Shown piece by piece: positions 16,386 to 25,870 of a DNA stretch of 57,270 nucleotides. This stretch comes from Archaeoglobi archaeon. Its GTDB lineage: Archaea; Halobacteriota; Archaeoglobi; Archaeoglobales; Archaeoglobaceae. Both the position numbers and the translations under genes were made by a program. The DNA is taken from assembly GCA_029259335.1 (NCBI GenBank), contig JAPDIY010000050.1:1-57270 (forward strand), read 5' to 3'. The notes under the pieces were generated by a model. The model made no database searches, had not been told where the DNA came from, and was given only the letters and a program-made list of their open reading frames with translations. The stretch's first letter is position 1. Every line of letters begins with the position of its first letter.

Positions 16386-17327
16386 TCAACTGTGAATAAG
16401 TTCAGCCACGATTTCAAGGGCATCAGCAAGCCTATATGACGGGCGATTAATTATATCTGCATCAACGATAAATACCTTTCCATTCTCAATAGCCTTAATG
16501 CTCTTCAACCTTTCATCGCTGGTAACCCACTCATACACTATATCCTTCCCGCCCCCCATCCCCGTTCCGCTGCTGACGAGTATAACATCAGGATTCGCCG
16601 CAATTAAATCTTCAATGCTCACAACCCTCCACCCGTCAAACCTGAAAACGTTCTCACCGTTTGCAAGCGTTATGACTTCATCAATAAACGTATTTTTCCC
16701 GCTTACCCATATTGGATCATGCCATAGCAGATGCGCAACCTTCACCTTCGGCTTATTTTTAACCTTCTCCCTTGCAGCCTCTATTTTTTCAATCATCTCT
16801 CCAACTACCTTAGTGGCATTGTCGTAATTCCCAGTAGCTCTGCCAATCAAGACTATATCCTTCATCACATCCTGAATCGTTTTAGGGTCGAAGGCTATAA
16901 CGTTTATTCCAAACTTTCTCAGAGTCTCTATCGTTTCCAGACCGTTGCCGTATGACGCGACGACGAGATCTGGCTTTAATGCAAGAACTTTCTCAACGTT
17001 TATCGTCGAATACCCACCAACGCTCACGATCTCTCCATTCTCCTTTTTATCCAGCACGATTGGAGGGTAATTGCAGTAGTCAGTAACACCAACAACTCTA
17101 TCCCCTGCTCCGATAGCAAACAGAATCTCAGTGTTGCTTGGAGCGAGCGATACGATTCTTTCTGGGTGCCCTTCGGATATGGGGTAACCAGTATCGTCAA
17201 CAGGTGTGGTATTAAGTATCTCAGTGAGATTAAACCGTCCTATATTGCTGTGCTGCGGTTCTGGTGGCTGAGAGATGCAGAGAGCAAAAAATAACGCTAT
17301 AAAAACAAGGTAAAAAAATTTTCTCAT
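16386..17327 (-). CDS. btuF: Corrinoid ABC transporter substrate-binding protein (BtuF-like)
   Basis: Hydrophobic leader ending ALCIS; RIVSLAPSNTEILFAIGAGDRVVGVTDYCNYPP; VLALKPDLVVAS; genomic context. Confidence 0.87.
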   Translation of the reverse strand: MRKFFYLVFIALFFALCISQPPEPQHSNIGRFNLTEILNTTPVDDTGYPISEGHPERIVSLAPSNTEILFAIGAGDRVVGVTDYCNYPPIVLDKKENGEIVSVGGYSTINVEKVLALKPDLVVASYGNGLETIETLRKFGINVIAFDPKTIQDVMKDIVLIGRATGNYDNATKVVGEMIEKIEAAREKVKNKPKVKVAHLLWHDPIWVSGKNTFIDEVITLANGENVFRFDGWRVVSIEDLIAANPDVILVSSGTGMGGGKDIVYEWVTSDERLKSIKAIENGKVFIVDADIINRPSYRLADALEIVAELIHS

Positions 17328-19489
17328 CTTATCCGCCTCCTCAGTCCAGCTATCATTGTCAGAGCCAATAGTGCCACCACAACCGAAAATCCCGGCGTTC
17401 GTTTCTCCGTCTGAGTAAGCGTAGCTGTAACCGTAGCTGTTTCTTTAGTTTGTGTGACAGCAGTTGCGGTTGCAGTTGCAGTTTTGGCTGTGGTTGTGGT
17501 TGTGGTAGTTGTGGCTGTAATACTAATGTTAGTCTCAGCAGATACTTTAGCCTTGATCGGATGCGGTTTTCCAAGCATAGCCATGATAGCACTGACCGTC
17601 ATGTAGCCCGGATTCGATGTCTGGTAAGTGGTGTATTTAAAGTATCCCTCCTCCGTCTGAAGGCTGAGCAAATGCTCCACAACGCTGTGGTTGTTCTTTT
17701 TCCACTCCGCTGGATTTATCCCGGCAGCGACCAGAGCCTGTATCGTCCAAGCGTCGCTTGCTGCGTTGCTTGCTGAGTTGCCATAGTACCTCATCCCCCC
17801 ATCATCGTTCTGCCCCTCCTTCAGATACTCCAGAGCTTTGAGAATACAGTCTGAATCCTTGGGCTCGCCTGCGGCAATCAAAGCCTGTATTGCAGCAGCC
17901 GTATCGTCAAAATCGCTTTCTTCACCTACATTCCATGAAAAACCTCCGTCTGGATTCTGCTGAGTCTTAAGCCACTCTGCCGATTTGCTTACATCTTCCC
18001 CAACTGCCTTCAGGGCAAGCATACCCCATATTGTAGTGTAAACGAAATCTCCTATCTGGCCGTTCTTCTTAATCTTCGATCTCAGCATGCTGACGAGGTC
18101 GATTCCTGCAAAGTTTCTCGGATTCTCATCCGCGTAAACGAGGGCGAGAATTGTTCTCGCATAGTCGGCAGTTCCCATCTCTCCAACCTCTTTCCTCAGC
18201 TTATCTTTTATAAAATCAAGTGGACTTTTGTCACTCTTCTTCCAATCATGCGGGTCTTGTCCTGCTGCCACAATCGCCATTATCGCCCAAGAAGTCTTCG
18301 CAACACTGCTGTTCTCTCCGGGATTTGCAAAACCTCCATCATCGTTCTGTATTGACCTCAGCCAGTTCAAAGCTTTTACAATCCTCTCATCACTTGTATT
18401 CAGTGGAAAATCCTTCCATTTAACAGTTACTGCAAATATGCTGAAATTGTTCGTTTTTGCGGTGTAGTAGATGTATTCCTCATCCTCTCCTGTTTTCTCT
18501 GTCGGCAGTTCAATCCATGAACTGTTGAACTTCATCAGAACGACTTCTCTACTATCTGCAATGTCTCTGGGAACTCTGAAGTGTATTTTCGCATCCACTG
18601 AGGCGTTTACTTCCAACTCAAAACAGCTGTAAATAGTGCCGTAAACAACTCCTGAGGGTGTATGAGCTTCCGATAGTGTTATTTCTACAGCCTTATCGCG
18701 ATTACCAATCCAAAGCCCTGTAACCGAGAGGTTCTCTGCGACATCTTCAGGAATTGAAACATTCATCGCCTCTCCCGGTTCTAAGACCAACGGGTAGCTT
18801 GTGTTCAGAATAACTTCAGACTCTCTGACTGTTACATTCTTGCTAATCGAACTCAACAACCCATCATTGTCAGCAACTGTAAGCTTAACCCTATACGTTC
18901 CGGGTTGGGTGTAGGCATGCGTAACAACAACACCTCTGCCACTCTCTCCATCTCCAAAGTCCCAGACATAGGATATTATTTCTCCATCGTCGTATGACTT
19001 GGATGCATTGAACACCACTTCCTCACCGACAAGAGGGTTTTGTGGGGTAAAGGTGAAATCCGGGAACGGAGCTACCTTTTTCGGCCAGATGATACTCACG
19101 TATATTTCATAATCGTTGCCGATAGAGATGTAGATCTTGTATGGTGAGGTTTCTGGTGTTTCGCTCATGCTACGGGAGAAGTACCACACTATTTCGTCTT
19201 CGGGCTTCACTCTGAAATCGGTAGCTGCAACACCGGGCATTGGATCGTCGGGATAATTTACCCAGTACATCCAGCCCGATGTCTCGCCAATATCTCCCTT
19301 GCAGAGGCCTTTAATGCATTTAACAAAAATTCCCCACTCTGTAAGTTCTGGGGTTACCGTAAAACCCTCCATTTCGGAAGCTTTTTTCAGTGCCCCGTAT
19401 GCGGTTCTCCACTCAACTTCTTTCCCCAGCACCGTGAATGTTCCGTATGGCAAAACGTTCTTGTTGCTTTCCCACCACCACTTGAGCAT
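17324..19489 (-). CDS. Surface protein: DUF4430-like (transcobalamin beta-type) + PKD + prenyltransferase/squalene-oxidase-type repeats + Thr-rich stalk + PGF-CTERM anchor
   Basis: WRTAYGALKKASEMEGF...SGWMYWVNYPDDPMPGVAATDFRVKPEDEIVWYF (DUF4430-like); FDPP-like PKD YVWDFGDGESGRGVVVTHAYTQPGTYRVKLTVADNDG; repeats NDDGGFA, NPDGGFSW, NDDGGMRY; C-term TPGFSVVVALLALTMIAGLRRRIR. Lacks its own signal peptide (see 19387-19779). Confidence 0.85.
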   Translation of the reverse strand: MLKWWWESNKNVLPYGTFTVLGKEVEWRTAYGALKKASEMEGFTVTPELTEWGIFVKCIKGLCKGDIGETSGWMYWVNYPDDPMPGVAATDFRVKPEDEIVWYFSRSMSETPETSPYKIYISIGNDYEIYVSIIWPKKVAPFPDFTFTPQNPLVGEEVVFNASKSYDDGEIISYVWDFGDGESGRGVVVTHAYTQPGTYRVKLTVADNDGLLSSISKNVTVRESEVILNTSYPLVLEPGEAMNVSIPEDVAENLSVTGLWIGNRDKAVEITLSEAHTPSGVVYGTIYSCFELEVNASVDAKIHFRVPRDIADSREVVLMKFNSSWIELPTEKTGEDEEYIYYTAKTNNFSIFAVTVKWKDFPLNTSDERIVKALNWLRSIQNDDGGFANPGENSSVAKTSWAIMAIVAAGQDPHDWKKSDKSPLDFIKDKLRKEVGEMGTADYARTILALVYADENPRNFAGIDLVSMLRSKIKKNGQIGDFVYTTIWGMLALKAVGEDVSKSAEWLKTQQNPDGGFSWNVGEESDFDDTAAAIQALIAAGEPKDSDCILKALEYLKEGQNDDGGMRYYGNSASNAASDAWTIQALVAAGINPAEWKKNNHSVVEHLLSLQTEEGYFKYTTYQTSNPGYMTVSAIMAMLGKPHPIKAKVSAETNISITATTTTTTTTAKTATATATAVTQTKETATVTATLTQTEKRTPGFSVVVALLALTMIAGLRRRIR

Positions 19490-19779
19490 GTGGTAATCCG
19501 GACATTTCTTGATACCTTCTCATTATCAGCGATAGCTGTAACGTTAAGCTCTCCCTCAACCCTTGGGATAAAATAGGCGGGACTGTTCGGGGAAGCTTCG
19601 GAAAAAATGGGCGTTCCAGAGTTAATCCTGAGTATTATTGTTGCTTCTCTGTCCGTCGTCACTGTAACCTGCTCGTTCAAGCAGTTTCCGCTAACACTGA
19701 TGGTCAGGGCTGAGGTTACTGGTAGGATGAAAATAGGAAGAAATAGTAGAAGTAGAACCGGAATTCTGCGCACACGCAT
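19387..19779 (-). pseudogene. Signal-peptide-bearing N-terminal piece probably belonging to the 17324-19489 protein (apparent frameshift)
   Basis: MRVRRIPVLLLLFLPIFILPVTSALT signal peptide; overlaps the downstream ORF by 103 nt in another frame; the downstream ORF has a sorting tail but no signal. Confidence 0.6.
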
Positions 19780-21626
19780 CAGCTCACCTCACAGCTTGCC
19801 GGGCCGTAAATATGTATCGGGGCATTTGGATAGCTGCTGAACCTGTAAACGCCAGCGTAGAGTTTGTAACTTCCTGTTTGGGCTAACTGTGGGATGTGTA
19901 CAAGCACAGGAACTCTGAGTACTTCTCCGGCATTGAGGTGGAACGTCGAGATCCCTGCAAGAGCCTCGCCGCTATTGCTCACCCCGCTCACAACCACGGC
20001 ATACCACTCACTCTCTGCTGAAGTAATGTTTACCCATGCTGTTATGTTTCCACCCCTCTTTCCGTCTGAAACTTCAAGGGACGAAATTCCCACTGGCTTA
20101 ACCTGGGAGTTAATCTTCAAAAGCACAGCGCATGTGTTAAGGCCACTCCCGTCACCATAGCAGTAGTAAACCGTCTCGTTCCCTGAGATGAGATAGGCAT
20201 CGGCGCTAACAGGAATCATAACCTTACTCTCATTCCACACCGACCAGTATATCCACTTTCCGTTCACCTGCTTAGTTCCAAGACCCATTATCGATGTGAT
20301 GAAAAGGCCTGTGGAGGTTTGCGGATCATACCAGCTATCATCCAGAGTTATCTCAAAAAATACCTCTGCATCACTGCTGTACTGCTGTGCAGCGTAAAGA
20401 GCGCCCATTGCAGTCGCCCTTTTCACGTAGTAAGTTTTCCCGTTAACGTCAACCTCAAACTTGCCGGGAATTAGGGAGACGTTGTACTGCAGATTCCCTG
20501 AGGTGCTGAAGCAGTATACATAGCCACTATCTGCTCCGATGTAGAGTCTGTTGTTGGCGACAAATGGGGATGACATGATGTTGTAGTAGGACCCAGAGGG
20601 GGGTTTTAGTCTGTAGTACCAGAGAAGACTGCCAGTATCGGCATTCAGAGCATAAATCGTTCCTTCTGGCGTATTCGTTGCAAAGTAAACAACCCCATCG
20701 GCAACAGCGGGAGAGGAGTCAATTTTGCCATTGGCTGCAAACTCCCAGAGCTTATTACCGGTAGTGGCGTTAAAGCAGTAGAGCTTACCTTCAGCCGAGC
20801 CTATGTAAATCCTGCCGTAAGCAACGGCTGCGGAGGAAATCGTTCCATTAAAGCTTACACTCCACGCCTCACTCCCGTCCAGATTTACTGCATAGAGCCT
20901 CTTGTCGGTGGCTACGAAAACCTTACCGTAACCTACGGATGGTGTGTTCGTTATCTTACCCTCAACCGGGAACTTCCAGACCAGATTTCCGTTTTCGTCA
21001 ACGGCAAACAGGCTATTTCCACTATCATTTCCTGCAAAGAAAATTACGCCGTTATAGGCTGCAGGAGAGGTATAATGCGAAATCTCCCCACCAGTCGAGT
21101 ACTTCCATCGGATATTTCCGCTTGAGTCGAGGCTCCAGAGGGTTCCATTTGAAAAGGTTGTAACGTAAACTGAACCATTGTAAACAAGGGGAGATGAGGT
21201 AATTCCCCACCAAGATGGTGAGGATTCGAGCAGAATTGATTTTTCTATCGCTCCGGTGGTTGTGTTGACGTAATAGAGGTGTCCAGAAAGGTTTCCAACA
21301 ATGATAACATTTCCAAACACTGCTACGCTTGAAGCTCCCGTAATTTTCTCATTCCTCCACTCTACATTCCCGGTGTCAGCATTCAGTGAATACAAACCCG
21401 GATTCCAGCCTCCCCATCCGTACCAGTTGGCAACATAAATATGCCCGTTCGAGTAAACCGGTGATGCTCCGACAAGTCCAGTAAGCTCCTGCTTCCATGC
21501 CAGAATCGGAAGAATTTCGCTACTTGCTGTAAAATTCCCCGTCCTCTGTATATCTCCATGAAACGTGTTAGCCTGCGCTGAGCCAATCACTACAAAGATC
21601 AGCAAAGTCAACATAACTTTCCGCAT
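19779..21626 (-). CDS. Secreted PQQ-type beta-propeller protein with C-terminal DUF4430-like domain
   Basis: Repeated blades (SPAVADGVVYFATNTPEGTIYALNADTGSLLWYY; GRIYIGSAEGKLYCFNATTGNKLWEF); DUF4430-like KTYYVKRATAMGALYAAQQ...FITSIMGLGTKQVNGKWIYWSVWNESKVMIPVSADAYLISGNETVYYCYGDG. Start chosen at MRKVMLTLLIFVVIGSAQA (signal peptide); the ORF extends to 21665. Confidence 0.83.
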   Translation of the reverse strand: MRKVMLTLLIFVVIGSAQANTFHGDIQRTGNFTASSEILPILAWKQELTGLVGASPVYSNGHIYVANWYGWGGWNPGLYSLNADTGNVEWRNEKITGASSVAVFGNVIIVGNLSGHLYYVNTTTGAIEKSILLESSPSWWGITSSPLVYNGSVYVTTFSNGTLWSLDSSGNIRWKYSTGGEISHYTSPAAYNGVIFFAGNDSGNSLFAVDENGNLVWKFPVEGKITNTPSVGYGKVFVATDKRLYAVNLDGSEAWSVSFNGTISSAAVAYGRIYIGSAEGKLYCFNATTGNKLWEFAANGKIDSSPAVADGVVYFATNTPEGTIYALNADTGSLLWYYRLKPPSGSYYNIMSSPFVANNRLYIGADSGYVYCFSTSGNLQYNVSLIPGKFEVDVNGKTYYVKRATAMGALYAAQQYSSDAEVFFEITLDDSWYDPQTSTGLFITSIMGLGTKQVNGKWIYWSVWNESKVMIPVSADAYLISGNETVYYCYGDGSGLNTCAVLLKINSQVKPVGISSLEVSDGKRGGNITAWVNITSAESEWYAVVVSGVSNSGEALAGISTFHLNAGEVLRVPVLVHIPQLAQTGSYKLYAGVYRFSSYPNAPIHIYGPASCEVS

Positions 21627-21648
21627 GTCAAGACTGCTTGATTTTTGC

Positions 21649-21656
21649 TTTATAAA
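21649..21656 (-). promoter_or_regulatory. TATA box of the propeller gene (TTTATAAA)
   Basis: TTTATAAA centred about 26 nt upstream of the ATG at 21626, consistent with a leaderless archaeal transcript. Confidence 0.5.
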
Positions 21657-21672
21657 CTTTTTCAATTATTTT

Positions 21673-21691
21673 GATATTCGATAAAGTTTGT
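21673..21691 (-). promoter_or_regulatory. Putative regulatory motif copy 2 (+ strand: GATATTCGATAAAGTTTGT)
   Basis: Matches copy 1 at 24443-24461 (GACATTTGATAAAGTTTAC) at 15 of 17 core positions. Confidence 0.4.
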
Positions 21692-21699
21692 TTGACTTG

Positions 21700-22266
21700 C
21701 TACCATTTAGCCAGACTCTCCTTTACCGCTTCGATTACTGAACTCCACAGCATCTTTCCAGCATCACTTCCCGGCCCTGCATATCTGCGATATTTTCCCT
21801 TCTGAGTGCAGAGCACTATGACTGCATCGGTGTTTGTCCCGGTAAAGTTGTACCCGGACTCAATCAAAGCCTTTGTCTTGGCCTCGGTTGCTGTTATTAT
21901 AGCGTTCAGCATGGCTGCCCTGCTCAATCTGCAGTCAAACACCGCTATTATGTTTATCGTCCCTATCCTTTCGTTGGGATTCTTCACTCCTGCCGTCACG
22001 AATGCTGTAACGTCACCGCAGCTCTTTACACTCAGGTTGCTCATCGGTACTGAAGTAAGAAGTCCGAAGTAGGACTTGAGACCATACCGCCCCGCAACCT
22101 TTCTGAGGTATTCGACTGGGTCTGAAAAAGAGAAGGTATCATCAACGGTGTGGTTGAACGCGTATCTAACCTTCTTCCATCCCCCATGCAGGCCGGTGCT
22201 AACTCCAAAAAAGTCTCCAGAAACTATTAGAGTTCTATCGTCAACCCAGTAATTTTCGTATGGCAT
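21700..22266 (-). CDS. cbiZ: Adenosylcobinamide amidohydrolase
   Basis: DRTLIVSGDFFGVSTGLHGGWK; CGDVTAFVTAGVKNP; GTINIIAVFDCRLSRAAMLNAIITATEAKTKAL; GTNTDAVIVLC. The start overlaps btuD. Confidence 0.9.
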   Translation of the reverse strand: MPYENYWVDDRTLIVSGDFFGVSTGLHGGWKKVRYAFNHTVDDTFSFSDPVEYLRKVAGRYGLKSYFGLLTSVPMSNLSVKSCGDVTAFVTAGVKNPNERIGTINIIAVFDCRLSRAAMLNAIITATEAKTKALIESGYNFTGTNTDAVIVLCTQKGKYRRYAGPGSDAGKMLWSSVIEAVKESLAKW

Positions 22267-23461
22267 CCAGAACATCCCCCTCTCCGCCAACAACTATCGC
22301 TTTTTTTAGAATTTCCTCGTAAATTCTTTCAGCGCTCTCCCCAACAAAGTTTCTTTGGTTGAATGGAGTACCATTCACAACAATCAGCTTACCAAGCTCT
22401 GCGGCGTGTTTTGCAGCCAAAAGATTCCTGAAGTTGCCCCACCCGACACTCAAATTTGCAAGAATTACTGCATCGCTCTCCTCAACCATTCGGAGGTTTC
22501 TCTCATGTGCTGAGTCACTTATCTGCGAGAACGGGGCCTCGTCAATAACCTCTCCGAGTTCCGAAACAACCTCCCAATCTGAGTCGAGGACATTCACGAC
22601 ACCCGCTGAAACCCTGAATCCAGCTTCAGCCAGAGCATACAGAATATTCTGGCCACTCCCCCCTCCACATATCACATGGATCCTTTTCTGCCCGCCAACT
22701 GGCTTTAATTTCGGAACGACATAAACACCCCTTCCATACCTCCTGACACTCACTTCAGCTCCAAAAACATCCCGTATGCTTTCCTCGGTAATCACATCCT
22801 CTGCCTTCCCCGCATACACAATCTTACCATCTTTGACCATTAGAATATGAGTAGCAAAGGACGATGCAAGGTTTATATCGTGAATTGCAACAATAGCTGA
22901 CTTACCCTCTTCAACCTTTTGCCTTACGATCTCCATTATCTCAATCTGAGCCGCTATATCGAGATGTGCAGTCGGCTCGTCCAGAAGCATTATCTTCGGC
23001 TGCTGGGCAAAGACTCTTGCAAGCATAACCTTTTGCCTCTCTCCCCCACTCAACTCGGAAAAGACCCTATCTGCAAAATCCTCCAGCCCAACTTCTTCAA
23101 GTGCCTTTCTTGCCACCCTATAATCACTCTCGTCTGGCCTTCTCAAACTGCTGCTCATGTATGGAGTTCTTCCGAGCAGTACAATGTCCAACACCTTCAG
23201 GTTGGTAATCGGAGTATCCTGCGGAAGATAACCAAGTATCCTTGCAGCACTCTCAACACTTCCAATTTCCTTTCCGTCGAGCATCACAACGCCTTTCATG
23301 GGTTTGAGGACGCCGAATACTGTTCTGAGAATGGTTGATTTTCCGCTTCCGTTTGGACCGAGCAGAGCAACAAGCTCGCCCTCCTTTACCTCAAAGGTTA
23401 CGTCCTTCAGCACATCCCTGCTGCCAAGCCTAACAACCACATCTTCAACTTTGAGTTTCAT
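22241..23461 (-). CDS. btuD: Corrinoid ABC transporter ATP-binding protein with fused C-terminal nucleotide-binding-like domain
   Basis: LLGPNGSGKST Walker A, LSGGERQKVMLARVFAQQPKIMLLDEPTAHLD; C-terminal about 150 aa IHVICGGGSGQNILYALAEAGFRVSAGVVNVLDSDW... Confidence 0.92.
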   Translation of the reverse strand: MKLKVEDVVVRLGSRDVLKDVTFEVKEGELVALLGPNGSGKSTILRTVFGVLKPMKGVVMLDGKEIGSVESAARILGYLPQDTPITNLKVLDIVLLGRTPYMSSSLRRPDESDYRVARKALEEVGLEDFADRVFSELSGGERQKVMLARVFAQQPKIMLLDEPTAHLDIAAQIEIMEIVRQKVEEGKSAIVAIHDINLASSFATHILMVKDGKIVYAGKAEDVITEESIRDVFGAEVSVRRYGRGVYVVPKLKPVGGQKRIHVICGGGSGQNILYALAEAGFRVSAGVVNVLDSDWEVVSELGEVIDEAPFSQISDSAHERNLRMVEESDAVILANLSVGWGNFRNLLAAKHAAELGKLIVVNGTPFNQRNFVGESAERIYEEILKKAIVVGGEGDVLDAIRKLLG

Positions 23462-24426
23462 ATCGACCTCCTCATAAGTAAGTATAGGAAGAACGGGCCA
23501 CCGAGCATTGCTGTTATTGCTCCCACTGGTAGCTCTCCACTGGTGGATATCCTGGCAAAAATATCTATTGCGGGCATGAAGGCTGTTGAAAGCAGAATGG
23601 TTGAGGGAAGCAATCGCTGATGTTCTTCTCCTACCATCATTCTAACTGTATGGGGAATTATAATACCAACAAATCCGATAACCCCACTTACAGCAACCGT
23701 AGCAGATGTGAGGAGGGCTACAACCGCTATCAGGGATCTCCTGTACCTCTCAACATTTATTCCCACTGCAGCAGCATGCTCGTCACCCAAAAGTAGAGCG
23801 TTGAGGTTCCAGGATGTTATCAGCAGATAGGCAATTCCCGCAATTGTAATGGGGAGTGCAAAGTAGACTTCTTCCCACTGTGGGTTCGAAAAGCTGCCCA
23901 TAAGCCAGAATACAACTTTATGCATGCTCTGTGCTGCGAAGTAAATGAGCAGGGACGTGAGACCTGAGAAAAAGGAAGCTATCGCCACTCCTGCAAGAAG
24001 AATCGCATATGTCTGGTCTCTGAAGCGGCTTGAGGTTCCTATGAGATACACCAGATACGCTGTAAACAGGGCTGAGAAAAAGGCAAAGACCAACCTTGAA
24101 TGAATAGCTCCAATGCTGAGGGCTACAGAGAGGGCAGCACCAACGCTCGCCCCACTCGCCACACCGAGTATGTAGGGCTCTGCGAGAGGGTTTCTGAACA
24201 ACGCCTGCATCGCACATCCGCTTGCCGATAAAGAGGCTCCGGCAATCATTGCAAGCAGCAATCTCGGCAGTCTGTAACCAAAAACTATGGTTTTTGTTGT
24301 ATCATCAGCTTTGTTGGTGAGTATCCTAAAAATCTGGTCATAGCCTGAGCTACCAACTCCAAGAGCCAGCACTACTGCCAGCAGATTGAAGATCAGGAGC
24401 AGGGGTATTATCGCGGTAAGTCTCAC
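23458..24426 (-). CDS. btuC: Corrinoid ABC transporter permease (FecCD/BtuC family)
   Basis: FGYRLPRLLLAMIAGASLSASGCAMQALFRNPLAEPYILGVASGASVGAA; GVIGFVGIIIPHTVRMMVGEEHQRLLP; GTG start. Confidence 0.93.
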   Translation of the reverse strand: MRLTAIIPLLLIFNLLAVVLALGVGSSGYDQIFRILTNKADDTTKTIVFGYRLPRLLLAMIAGASLSASGCAMQALFRNPLAEPYILGVASGASVGAALSVALSIGAIHSRLVFAFFSALFTAYLVYLIGTSSRFRDQTYAILLAGVAIASFFSGLTSLLIYFAAQSMHKVVFWLMGSFSNPQWEEVYFALPITIAGIAYLLITSWNLNALLLGDEHAAAVGINVERYRRSLIAVVALLTSATVAVSGVIGFVGIIIPHTVRMMVGEEHQRLLPSTILLSTAFMPAIDIFARISTSGELPVGAITAMLGGPFFLYLLMRRSI

Positions 24427-24463: not shown

Positions 24464-25816
24464 TTACGTTCTTACCTTTCCCCTCCCCAGAGAGGCAAAA
24501 ATTCCCACAAAGCATAGGGCTGTGAATATTGTGAAGGAAAGCTTTGCGCTCTGTATTAGCTGAGGGTAGTATTCGGGAGTTATCTCGGCCCTTCCGATGA
24601 AAAGGGAGAAAACGAACATAACCAGTGCCATGCTGAGTGTCTGCCCAACCAATCGCATGGTCGCCACGGTTGCTGATGCAATCCCGAAAAACTTCCTCTC
24701 GACCGAGTTCATTATTGCGTTGGTGTTTGGAGAACTGAACAGTGCTAGGCCGAATCCAAGGAACATGAGATTAGCTATTATCATCTTCAGATCTGTTTCC
24801 ATTGTTATGCCGGTGAATAAAAAGAGGCTAAGCGTTGTAGCGGCCATTCCCGCTGACGCCACAACTCTTGGCTCTATTCTGTCAGACAACCAACCAGAAA
24901 ATGGAGCGAAGAGAGCCATTATAACAGGCTGAGAAATGAGTATCAGTCCAGCCTGCTGAGCATCGAATCCCTTGATGTACTGCAGATACAAACTCATGAG
25001 AAAGCCCACAGCGAAAGTTGCAGCGTAGTTTAGCAGTGCGGCAAGGCTTGAAAGAGAGAATGTAAGATTTCTTTTCAGCAGCCTGACCTCGAATACAGGA
25101 TACTCTCTTCTGCTCTCGTAAATCAAGAATGCGAACAGCAGAATGAATCCAGCGATGAGAAACGGAACTTTGAACTCCGAAAAGCCATAGATCAGAGAGA
25201 GGAGCATGAGCGCGTAGATTACTGAACCCAGCAAGTCAAACCTCTCCTCCCTCGCATCCGCCCACTCTTCCTTCAGATATAGCAGAGATATCAGCAGACC
25301 CAAAATCCCTAAGAAGCCGTTGAAGAGGAACACGCACCTCCATCCGAAATTCTGAGTCAGATAACCACCAAGAAAAGGTCCAAGGCTTAGGCCAGTGTAA
25401 ACCGCTCCGGTATTGATGCCTATCGCCTTTCCCCTCTTAGCCGGAGGATATACGGATGTGAGAATTGCAACGGCAGTGGCGAATATCATCGCCCCGCTAA
25501 TCCCTTGAAGAACTCTGAAGACTATGAGAGATTCGGCCGAGGGAGCAATGGCTGAAAGAACTGATCCGAGAGTGAATGTGGCAAGTCCGGCAACGAAGAC
25601 TTTCTTTCTCCCCTTTATGTCTGCAATCCTTCCGAAAGGTACCGAGAACATTCCGGCTGCAAGCAGATAAGAGGTGGCAACCCAGCCAAGGGTGATCGCA
25701 TCAACTTCAAATTCCCTACCGATTGATGGCAGGGCAACATTCGTTGCGGAGCCGATGAAGGGGGTGAGAAATGATGAAATGCATGCAGCAAGGAGAGCAG
25801 CATTGCGGATATCCAT
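24464..25816 (-). CDS. MFS drug:H+ antiporter-like transporter (14-TM DHA2/EmrB type)
   Basis: FLTPFIGSATNVALPSIGREFEVDAITLGWVATSYLLAAGMFSVPFGRIADIKGRKKVF. ORF extends to 25834; MDIRNAALLAAC start preferred. Confidence 0.87.
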   Translation of the reverse strand: MDIRNAALLAACISSFLTPFIGSATNVALPSIGREFEVDAITLGWVATSYLLAAGMFSVPFGRIADIKGRKKVFVAGLATFTLGSVLSAIAPSAESLIVFRVLQGISGAMIFATAVAILTSVYPPAKRGKAIGINTGAVYTGLSLGPFLGGYLTQNFGWRCVFLFNGFLGILGLLISLLYLKEEWADAREERFDLLGSVIYALMLLSLIYGFSEFKVPFLIAGFILLFAFLIYESRREYPVFEVRLLKRNLTFSLSSLAALLNYAATFAVGFLMSLYLQYIKGFDAQQAGLILISQPVIMALFAPFSGWLSDRIEPRVVASAGMAATTLSLFLFTGITMETDLKMIIANLMFLGFGLALFSSPNTNAIMNSVERKFFGIASATVATMRLVGQTLSMALVMFVFSLFIGRAEITPEYYPQLIQSAKLSFTIFTALCFVGIFASLGRGKVRT

Positions 25817-25870
25817 GCTGAATGTTTGTCGCATCGCTTTTAAGTTTTAGCTGAAATAGAGGAGGTAAGA

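Follow-up and report, generated by a model that had tools for sequence, protein, structure and literature searches.

What are two large secreted proteins doing between an enzyme of corrinoid salvage and a predicted corrinoid-binding lipoprotein in an archaeon? The question is raised by a six-gene locus in a 57,270-nucleotide stretch of DNA from an Archaeoglobi archaeon of the Archaeoglobaceae (GenBank assembly GCA_029259335.1, contig JAPDIY010000050.1, positions 1 to 57,270; hereafter, the window), in which a beta-propeller protein and an alpha/alpha-toroid protein, both bearing DUF4430-type domains, are encoded between cbiZ and btuF. We consider it highly likely that these genes together serve corrinoid acquisition, with surface capture followed by hand-over to BtuF, import by BtuCD, and salvage through CbiZ. 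As judged from sequence, the two secreted proteins probably trap B12-type molecules at the cell surface, because domains of the types found in the human B12 carriers stand beside a B12 importer and a salvage enzyme. A sequence-only reading of the window had proposed the six genes, their order, strand, and span, and their overlapping or abutting junctions, all of which were recovered from open reading frames (ORFs) and searches of Pfam and NCBIfam (Table 1); nor is the arrangement a product of chance, since it recurs across the Archaeoglobales.

Among 57 Archaeoglobales genomes, 35 contained DUF4430, and the propeller, toroid, and btuF genes lay consecutively on one strand in 30 of the 31 evaluable loci, with start and stop codons that in most cases overlap. 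Twelve loci other than the window, from several genera, have BtuC, BtuD, and CbiZ at the head of this run. Another genus has cbiB ahead of the propeller gene at two loci (L044 and L045), with cobS, an NTP transferase gene, and cbiZ also close by in L044. The gene directly upstream of cbiZ in this salvage cluster (L044:15365-16354) had no Pfam match at an E value of 0.001. Related genomes are among those counted, and the loci cannot be taken as independent events. The co-occurrence of CbiZ and DUF4430 (Fisher p 0.001) likewise ignores the kinship of the genomes, and our argument therefore rests on linkage and on gene fusion.

The fusion came to light beyond the order, where we searched 391 genomes of the phylum with a profile cut to the toroid domain alone. 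Close toroids (>240 bits on the Archaeoglobales model) were present in 34 fetched loci outside the Archaeoglobales, 33 of them evaluable and one ending at a contig edge. Toroid and BtuF form one polypeptide, usually of ~600-700 amino acids, in 28 of the 33, and btuF lies next door in three more, giving 31 of 33 that adjoin BtuF; the other two are L191, with BtuF elsewhere in its genome, and the giant protein L215. The sequence-only reading had staked its case on a conserved linkage in relatives, and that linkage is thus borne out both within the Archaeoglobales and elsewhere in the phylum. Carriers of the fusion with names are Methanoculleus, Methanogenium, Methanocalculus, and Methanofollis, and the two parts occur as separate genes on ANME (anaerobic methanotrophic)-type, Methanophagales, and Nitrosotalea-labelled contigs; a single origin of the fusion, in the Methanomicrobiales, is possible. 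In L095, Pfam identified the toroid and Peripla_BP_2 in one protein, whose neighbor combines PQQ_2 with four DUF4430 domains. A further gene with weak propeller similarity (L095:12654-13772) follows the fusion gene in Methanoculleus and its relatives. We found no published report of a toroid-BtuF fusion in the open-access literature. Distant toroids in giant proteins (1500-3200 amino acids) are mostly not beside BtuF, and our inference is therefore confined to the close toroid group. Giant archaeal proteins of ~2000-3200 amino acids with such distant toroids, not beside BtuF, are encoded at L211:2998-12516, L219:4297-11331, and L221:6356-12625.

Relatives in the Clostridia tie the toroid/DUF4430 family to corrinoid supply independently of BtuF, through their riboswitches. 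Specifically, an RF00174 cobalamin riboswitch immediately preceded the first gene, in the same orientation, in 14 of the 29 bacterial loci scanned; in several of the remaining loci, the operon start lies beyond the contig end, and no further cobalamin riboswitches were found elsewhere in these loci. The clostridial gene order comprises an S-layer homology (SLH)-anchored DUF4430 protein, a DUF4430 lipoprotein, CbiQ/EcfT, a double ATP-binding cassette (ABC) ATPase, an SLH-anchored toroid, and the S component of an energy-coupling factor (ECF) transporter, the ligand of which is presumably a corrinoid; in L111, CbiZ heads the operon. ECF operons led by such riboswitches, whose DUF4430 and toroid proteins are SLH-anchored, were seen at L115:1022-11201, L111, L140, and similar loci. 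The corrinoid-starvation operon-2 of Dehalobacter has been described as encoding transporters, CbiZ paralogues, and chelatases, with no mention of toroid/DUF4430 proteins. Both the riboswitch control of these relatives and the linkage across order and phylum, with its fusion to BtuF, argue against another view, in which both large proteins would have ordinary S-layer or adhesion roles and their place in an operon with btuF would be accidental. Although that view could draw on the frequency of PKD, propeller, and PGF-CTERM parts in archaeal surface proteins and on the distant giants not beside BtuF, we regard it as extremely improbable.

The importer bears on the identity of the ligand. When BtuF was searched against the PDB, the best match was a vitamin B12-binding protein (5ysc, 5e-30), with E. 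coli BtuF at 5e-23; haem and most iron binders ranked lower, the exception being 4m7o (2e-24), which is named just "iron-binding protein". A BtuF of other specificity, which the sequence-only reading had itself named as fatal to its proposal, is therefore not indicated, the best solved relative being a binder of vitamin B12. In archaea, cobinamide salvage uses CbiZ as its amidohydrolase (PMC3541065), and the locus gene is the one copy in this assembly. Homologues of BtuF, BtuC, and BtuD are co-encoded here, none reaching an NCBIfam equivalog cut-off; for BtuD, the top model was NF007082, "corrinoid ABC transporter ATPase" (292 bits, below its cut-off). Corrinoid as the BtuFCD substrate is supported only indirectly at the sequence level, by CbiZ linkage and BtuF similarity.

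The surface proteins and importer might instead handle another small molecule, such as a tetrapyrrole of another kind, a chelate of cobalt, or some unknown metabolite. Corrin-ring synthesis genes are common in carriers of the module, as this would allow: CbiD was found in 36 of the 57 Archaeoglobales genomes, most congeners included. However, the linkage to CbiZ, CbiB, and BtuF, the cobalamin riboswitches ahead of the clostridial relatives, and the module-bearing genomes without CbiD all point to a corrinoid, and we find a different ligand improbable. The genomes that have the module without CbiD number seven, are 96-99% complete, and are thus probably unable to build the corrin ring de novo; given CbiD in many other carriers, the module is not confined to auxotrophs.

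If a corrinoid is the ligand, the domains of the two proteins suggest how it could be held. A DUF4430 profile of 29 archaeal and bacterial domains, searched against the whole PDB, matched first haptocorrin (TCN1, 6e-8), then transcobalamin (TCN2, 7e-6) and intrinsic factor (1e-3), in agreement with the earlier statement that DUF4430 is kin to the beta domain of transcobalamin and intrinsic factor. In the alignment, FVKCIKGLC of the window matches YITCIQGLC of haptocorrin, and the conserved Trp of the next stretch (GWMY) aligns with YW or FW of the animal carriers. Bulky residues of the haptocorrin beta domain contact the corrinoid, and the aligned Trp is close to that region (PMC4350170). The propeller protein had been called DUF4430-like, and here the results diverge: PF14478 did not call DUF4430 on the protein of this genome, whereas an hhalign comparison with the DUF4430 profile placed the domain at residues 398-513 (99.8%), a result that is partly circular because the profile includes sister copies. 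A DUF4430 profile built from toroid proteins alone also detects the domain in the propeller orthologue L068, and propeller proteins of the Archaeoglobales carry 1-3 DUF4430 copies. The 50 best Foldseek matches of the propeller protein's AlphaFold2 (AF2) model (mean predicted local distance difference test score, pLDDT, 91.6) were BamB, tetrathionate hydrolase, YxaL, and designed propellers.

The toroid is the second domain type of transcobalamin, a connection beyond what the sequence-only reading drew. Some of the observations that weigh against corrinoid trapping also concern it. In the PDB, the toroid-only profile was closest to squalene-hopene cyclases and class II terpene cyclases (6e-30), and neither the transcobalamin alpha domain nor intrinsic factor was among its 60 best matches; intrinsic factor matched weakly in one search (E 0.17), with the toroid fold itself present. 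Toroids of archaea and Clostridia keep the DXDDT motif (SDxDDT) with little or no variation, and it aligns with DVDDTA, the catalytic DXDDTA motif of squalene-hopene cyclase. DUF4430 precedes the toroid, an order reversed relative to transcobalamin. Beyond the toroid, neither a cobalamin riboswitch nor any other Rfam element was found in the window, L065 and L191 have no btuF downstream (BtuF being elsewhere in both genomes), and 11 Archaeoglobales genomes have CbiZ without the module, which must therefore be accessory. Further, Foldseek with the whole toroid model (mean pLDDT 85.9) did not single out transcobalamin; because PKD, complement, and cyclase matches dominate the 50 listed, the fold search gives no specific support. 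The toroid and DUF4430 profile results together indicate a homologous beta domain, a toroid alike in fold type, and a reversed domain order.

One could accordingly suppose that the corrinoid is bound by the DUF4430 domains alone and that the toroid either docks with BtuF or acts as a secreted enzyme with kinship to the class II terpene cyclases. Such a division of labor would suit the closeness of the toroid to squalene-hopene cyclases and its invariant DXDDT motif, as well as the many archaea that have the toroid on BtuF and the DUF4430 copies on the propeller protein. But the toroid is secreted and anchored, the operon has no recognised isoprenoid genes, and transcobalamin pairs the same two folds, all of which makes this alternative quite improbable; the secreted, anchored, corrinoid-operon setting itself argues against polyprenyl cyclisation by the toroid.

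Under the reading that we prefer, in which both domain types trap a corrinoid, the propeller/DUF4430 protein and the DUF4430/toroid protein, the latter tethered by an archaeosortase-processed PGF-CTERM anchor, would trap cobamides or cobinamide outside the membrane. Capture would proceed via the beta-grasp domain and the alpha/alpha toroid, the types that clamp B12 in human transcobalamin, intrinsic factor, and haptocorrin, and the two may sandwich the ligand. The ligand would then be passed to the lipoprotein BtuF, in an order of hand-over that we infer, and brought in by BtuCD; CbiZ would open the nucleotide loop, from which the corrin ring could re-enter cobamide assembly. The toroid-BtuF fusion makes direct hand-over plausible, and since DUF4430 is on the other protein in the fused form, clamping in trans is possible. 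A tentative and rather doubtful extension is a split transcobalamin, in which the beta-grasp of the propeller/DUF4430 protein and the toroid of the toroid::BtuF chain would close round the ligand in trans and deliver it into the attached BtuF, the animal carriers being single-chain relatives.

Table 1. Features of the probable corrinoid locus in the window
Feature	Position	Strand	Supporting match
Whole run: six genes, all co-directional (btuC, btuD, cbiZ, propeller, toroid, btuF)	16386-24426	minus	
btuC, FecCD-type permease	23458..24426	minus	PF01032, E 1.3e-90; top NCBIfam models are the BtuC models NF007081 and NF003001, below cut-off
btuD, ABC ATPase (residues 1-240)	22241..23461	minus	PF00005, 3e-34
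cbiZ, adenosylcobinamide amidohydrolase	21700..22266	minus	PF01955, E 2.1e-44; 152 bits against a cut-off of 27
Propeller gene: secreted BamB-like PQQ-repeat beta-propeller, DUF4430-like domain, further C-terminal beta domain	19779..21665	minus	PF13360, 2.6e-40
Toroid gene, 5' part (other frame): signal peptide and first domain (first ~100 residues)	19387..19779	minus	
Toroid gene, main part: DUF4430, PKD, PGF-pre-PGF, alpha/alpha toroid, Thr-rich stalk, PGF-CTERM anchor	17324..19489	minus	PF14478, 3.8e-9 (above cut-off); PF18911, 2e-21; PF13243, 2e-17; TIGR04213, 51.7 bits, and TIGR04126, 25.3 bits (both exceed cut-off)
Toroid domain with invariant QNxDGGFxW...SDxDDT signature	17555..18409	minus	
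btuF, predicted TroA-type corrinoid-binding lipoprotein	16386..17327	minus	PF01497, 1.4e-39; N-terminal lipobox-like ALC

Within the run, btuC and btuD overlap by 4 nt, as do the toroid gene and btuF; btuD and cbiZ overlap by ~26 nt, the propeller and toroid genes by 1 nt (TGATG), and a 34 nt gap separates cbiZ from the propeller gene. The cbiZ ORF is listed from 22293, and the start is probably at 22266, the alternative that fits the 188-residue orthologues. The sequence-only reading had described a DUF4430/PKD/toroid/PGF-CTERM gene; its domains were confirmed, whereas a single intact gene was not, as DNA alignment with two congeners revealed that the frame is broken by one base near 19475, within a variable linker of Gly and Ser. 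The ORF at 17324-19489 begins just ahead of DUF4430 and is without a signal peptide; the signal-peptide-like N-terminus lies in 19387-19779, as it does at the start of toroid orthologues, those of the same genus being one open frame of 806-818 amino acids. The frameshift is most likely a sequencing or assembly error, and possibly a real lesion. Programmed frameshifting or phase variation is not favored, because the relatives are intact and the break falls in the variable linker of an assembly of 101 contigs (1.75 Mb, 89% complete). Archaeosortase ArtA (TIGR04125, 221 bits), which processes the PGF-CTERM motif, is encoded in this genome.

BtuD carries a C-terminal extension of ~150 residues (22241-22702) with no relative in Pfam or the PDB; the shorter BtuD of L052 and L053 is without it. 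The gene immediately preceding btuC, in the same orientation (24464-25834), encodes a DHA2-type major facilitator superfamily transporter, and this neighbor is retained in the congeners L034 and L036. Scans for sigma-70 promoters and terminators, of types ill-suited to archaea, gave chance-level results only, and a PHROGs search gave one match, of unassigned function.

Transcobalamin-like proteins of prokaryotes, with toroids and propellers and with one Archaeoglobus member, were described by Burroughs et al. (2007; PMC1796856), who took CbiO/CbiQ operons as grounds to predict that the bacterial proteins scavenge B12 and suggested that archaea might scavenge a "distinct metabolite"; their main text makes no mention of BtuF, FecCD, CbiZ, or riboswitches. 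Their SLBB proteins (Pfam DUF4430) share with ours the secreted beta-grasp domain, a toroid before or after it, a second SLBB paralogue in the operon (here, the propeller protein), and propeller fusions. Their operons carried CbiO/CbiQ, whereas here BtuCDF and CbiZ adjoin, and the Methanomicrobiales toroid is fused to BtuF. Hence, the phrase "archaeal analogue of surface B12-capture systems", used in the sequence-only reading, understated the case in that the beta domain is homologous, and overstated it in that similar bacterial and Archaeoglobus proteins were described in 2007. We found no prokaryotic B12 paper on DUF4430 in the open-access literature. The question left open in 2007, the ligand of the archaeal transcobalamin-like proteins, now gets a concrete, testable answer, for which toroid::BtuF is a natural single-chain protein for direct ligand assays. 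One capture module appears on two unrelated importers, BtuCDF in archaea and ECF in Clostridia, and the evidence indicates that corrinoid trapping at the surface, familiar from Bacteroides and animals, is also widespread among archaea in habitats of methane and sulfur cycling, including some with genomes seemingly unable to build the corrin ring.

Relative to a plain BtuFCD importer with archaeal CbiZ salvage, all four components of which are here, the locus is expanded by genes for two surface proteins, flanked by cbiZ and btuF, and by a C-terminal extension of BtuD. BtuG and BtuH of Bacteroides likewise act at the cell surface and have genes alongside those of a B12 importer, and one of the two is a beta-propeller (PMC6143338, PMC13398666). 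BtuG, however, has seven blades and partners the outer-membrane transporter BtuB, whereas the archaeal propeller is BamB-like by Foldseek, with no BtuG-type seven-bladed propeller among its 50 best matches; we set the Bacteroides system beside the locus as a likely parallel in function, claiming no homology. Animal transcobalamin, intrinsic factor, and haptocorrin have the same two domain types as the locus proteins, the beta domain being homologous by profile. The archaeal protein differs from them in its reversed domain order, its inserted PKD domain and stalk, and a toroid sequence that is not specifically close, and, where the animal carriers use receptor endocytosis, it is membrane-anchored and would feed an ABC importer.

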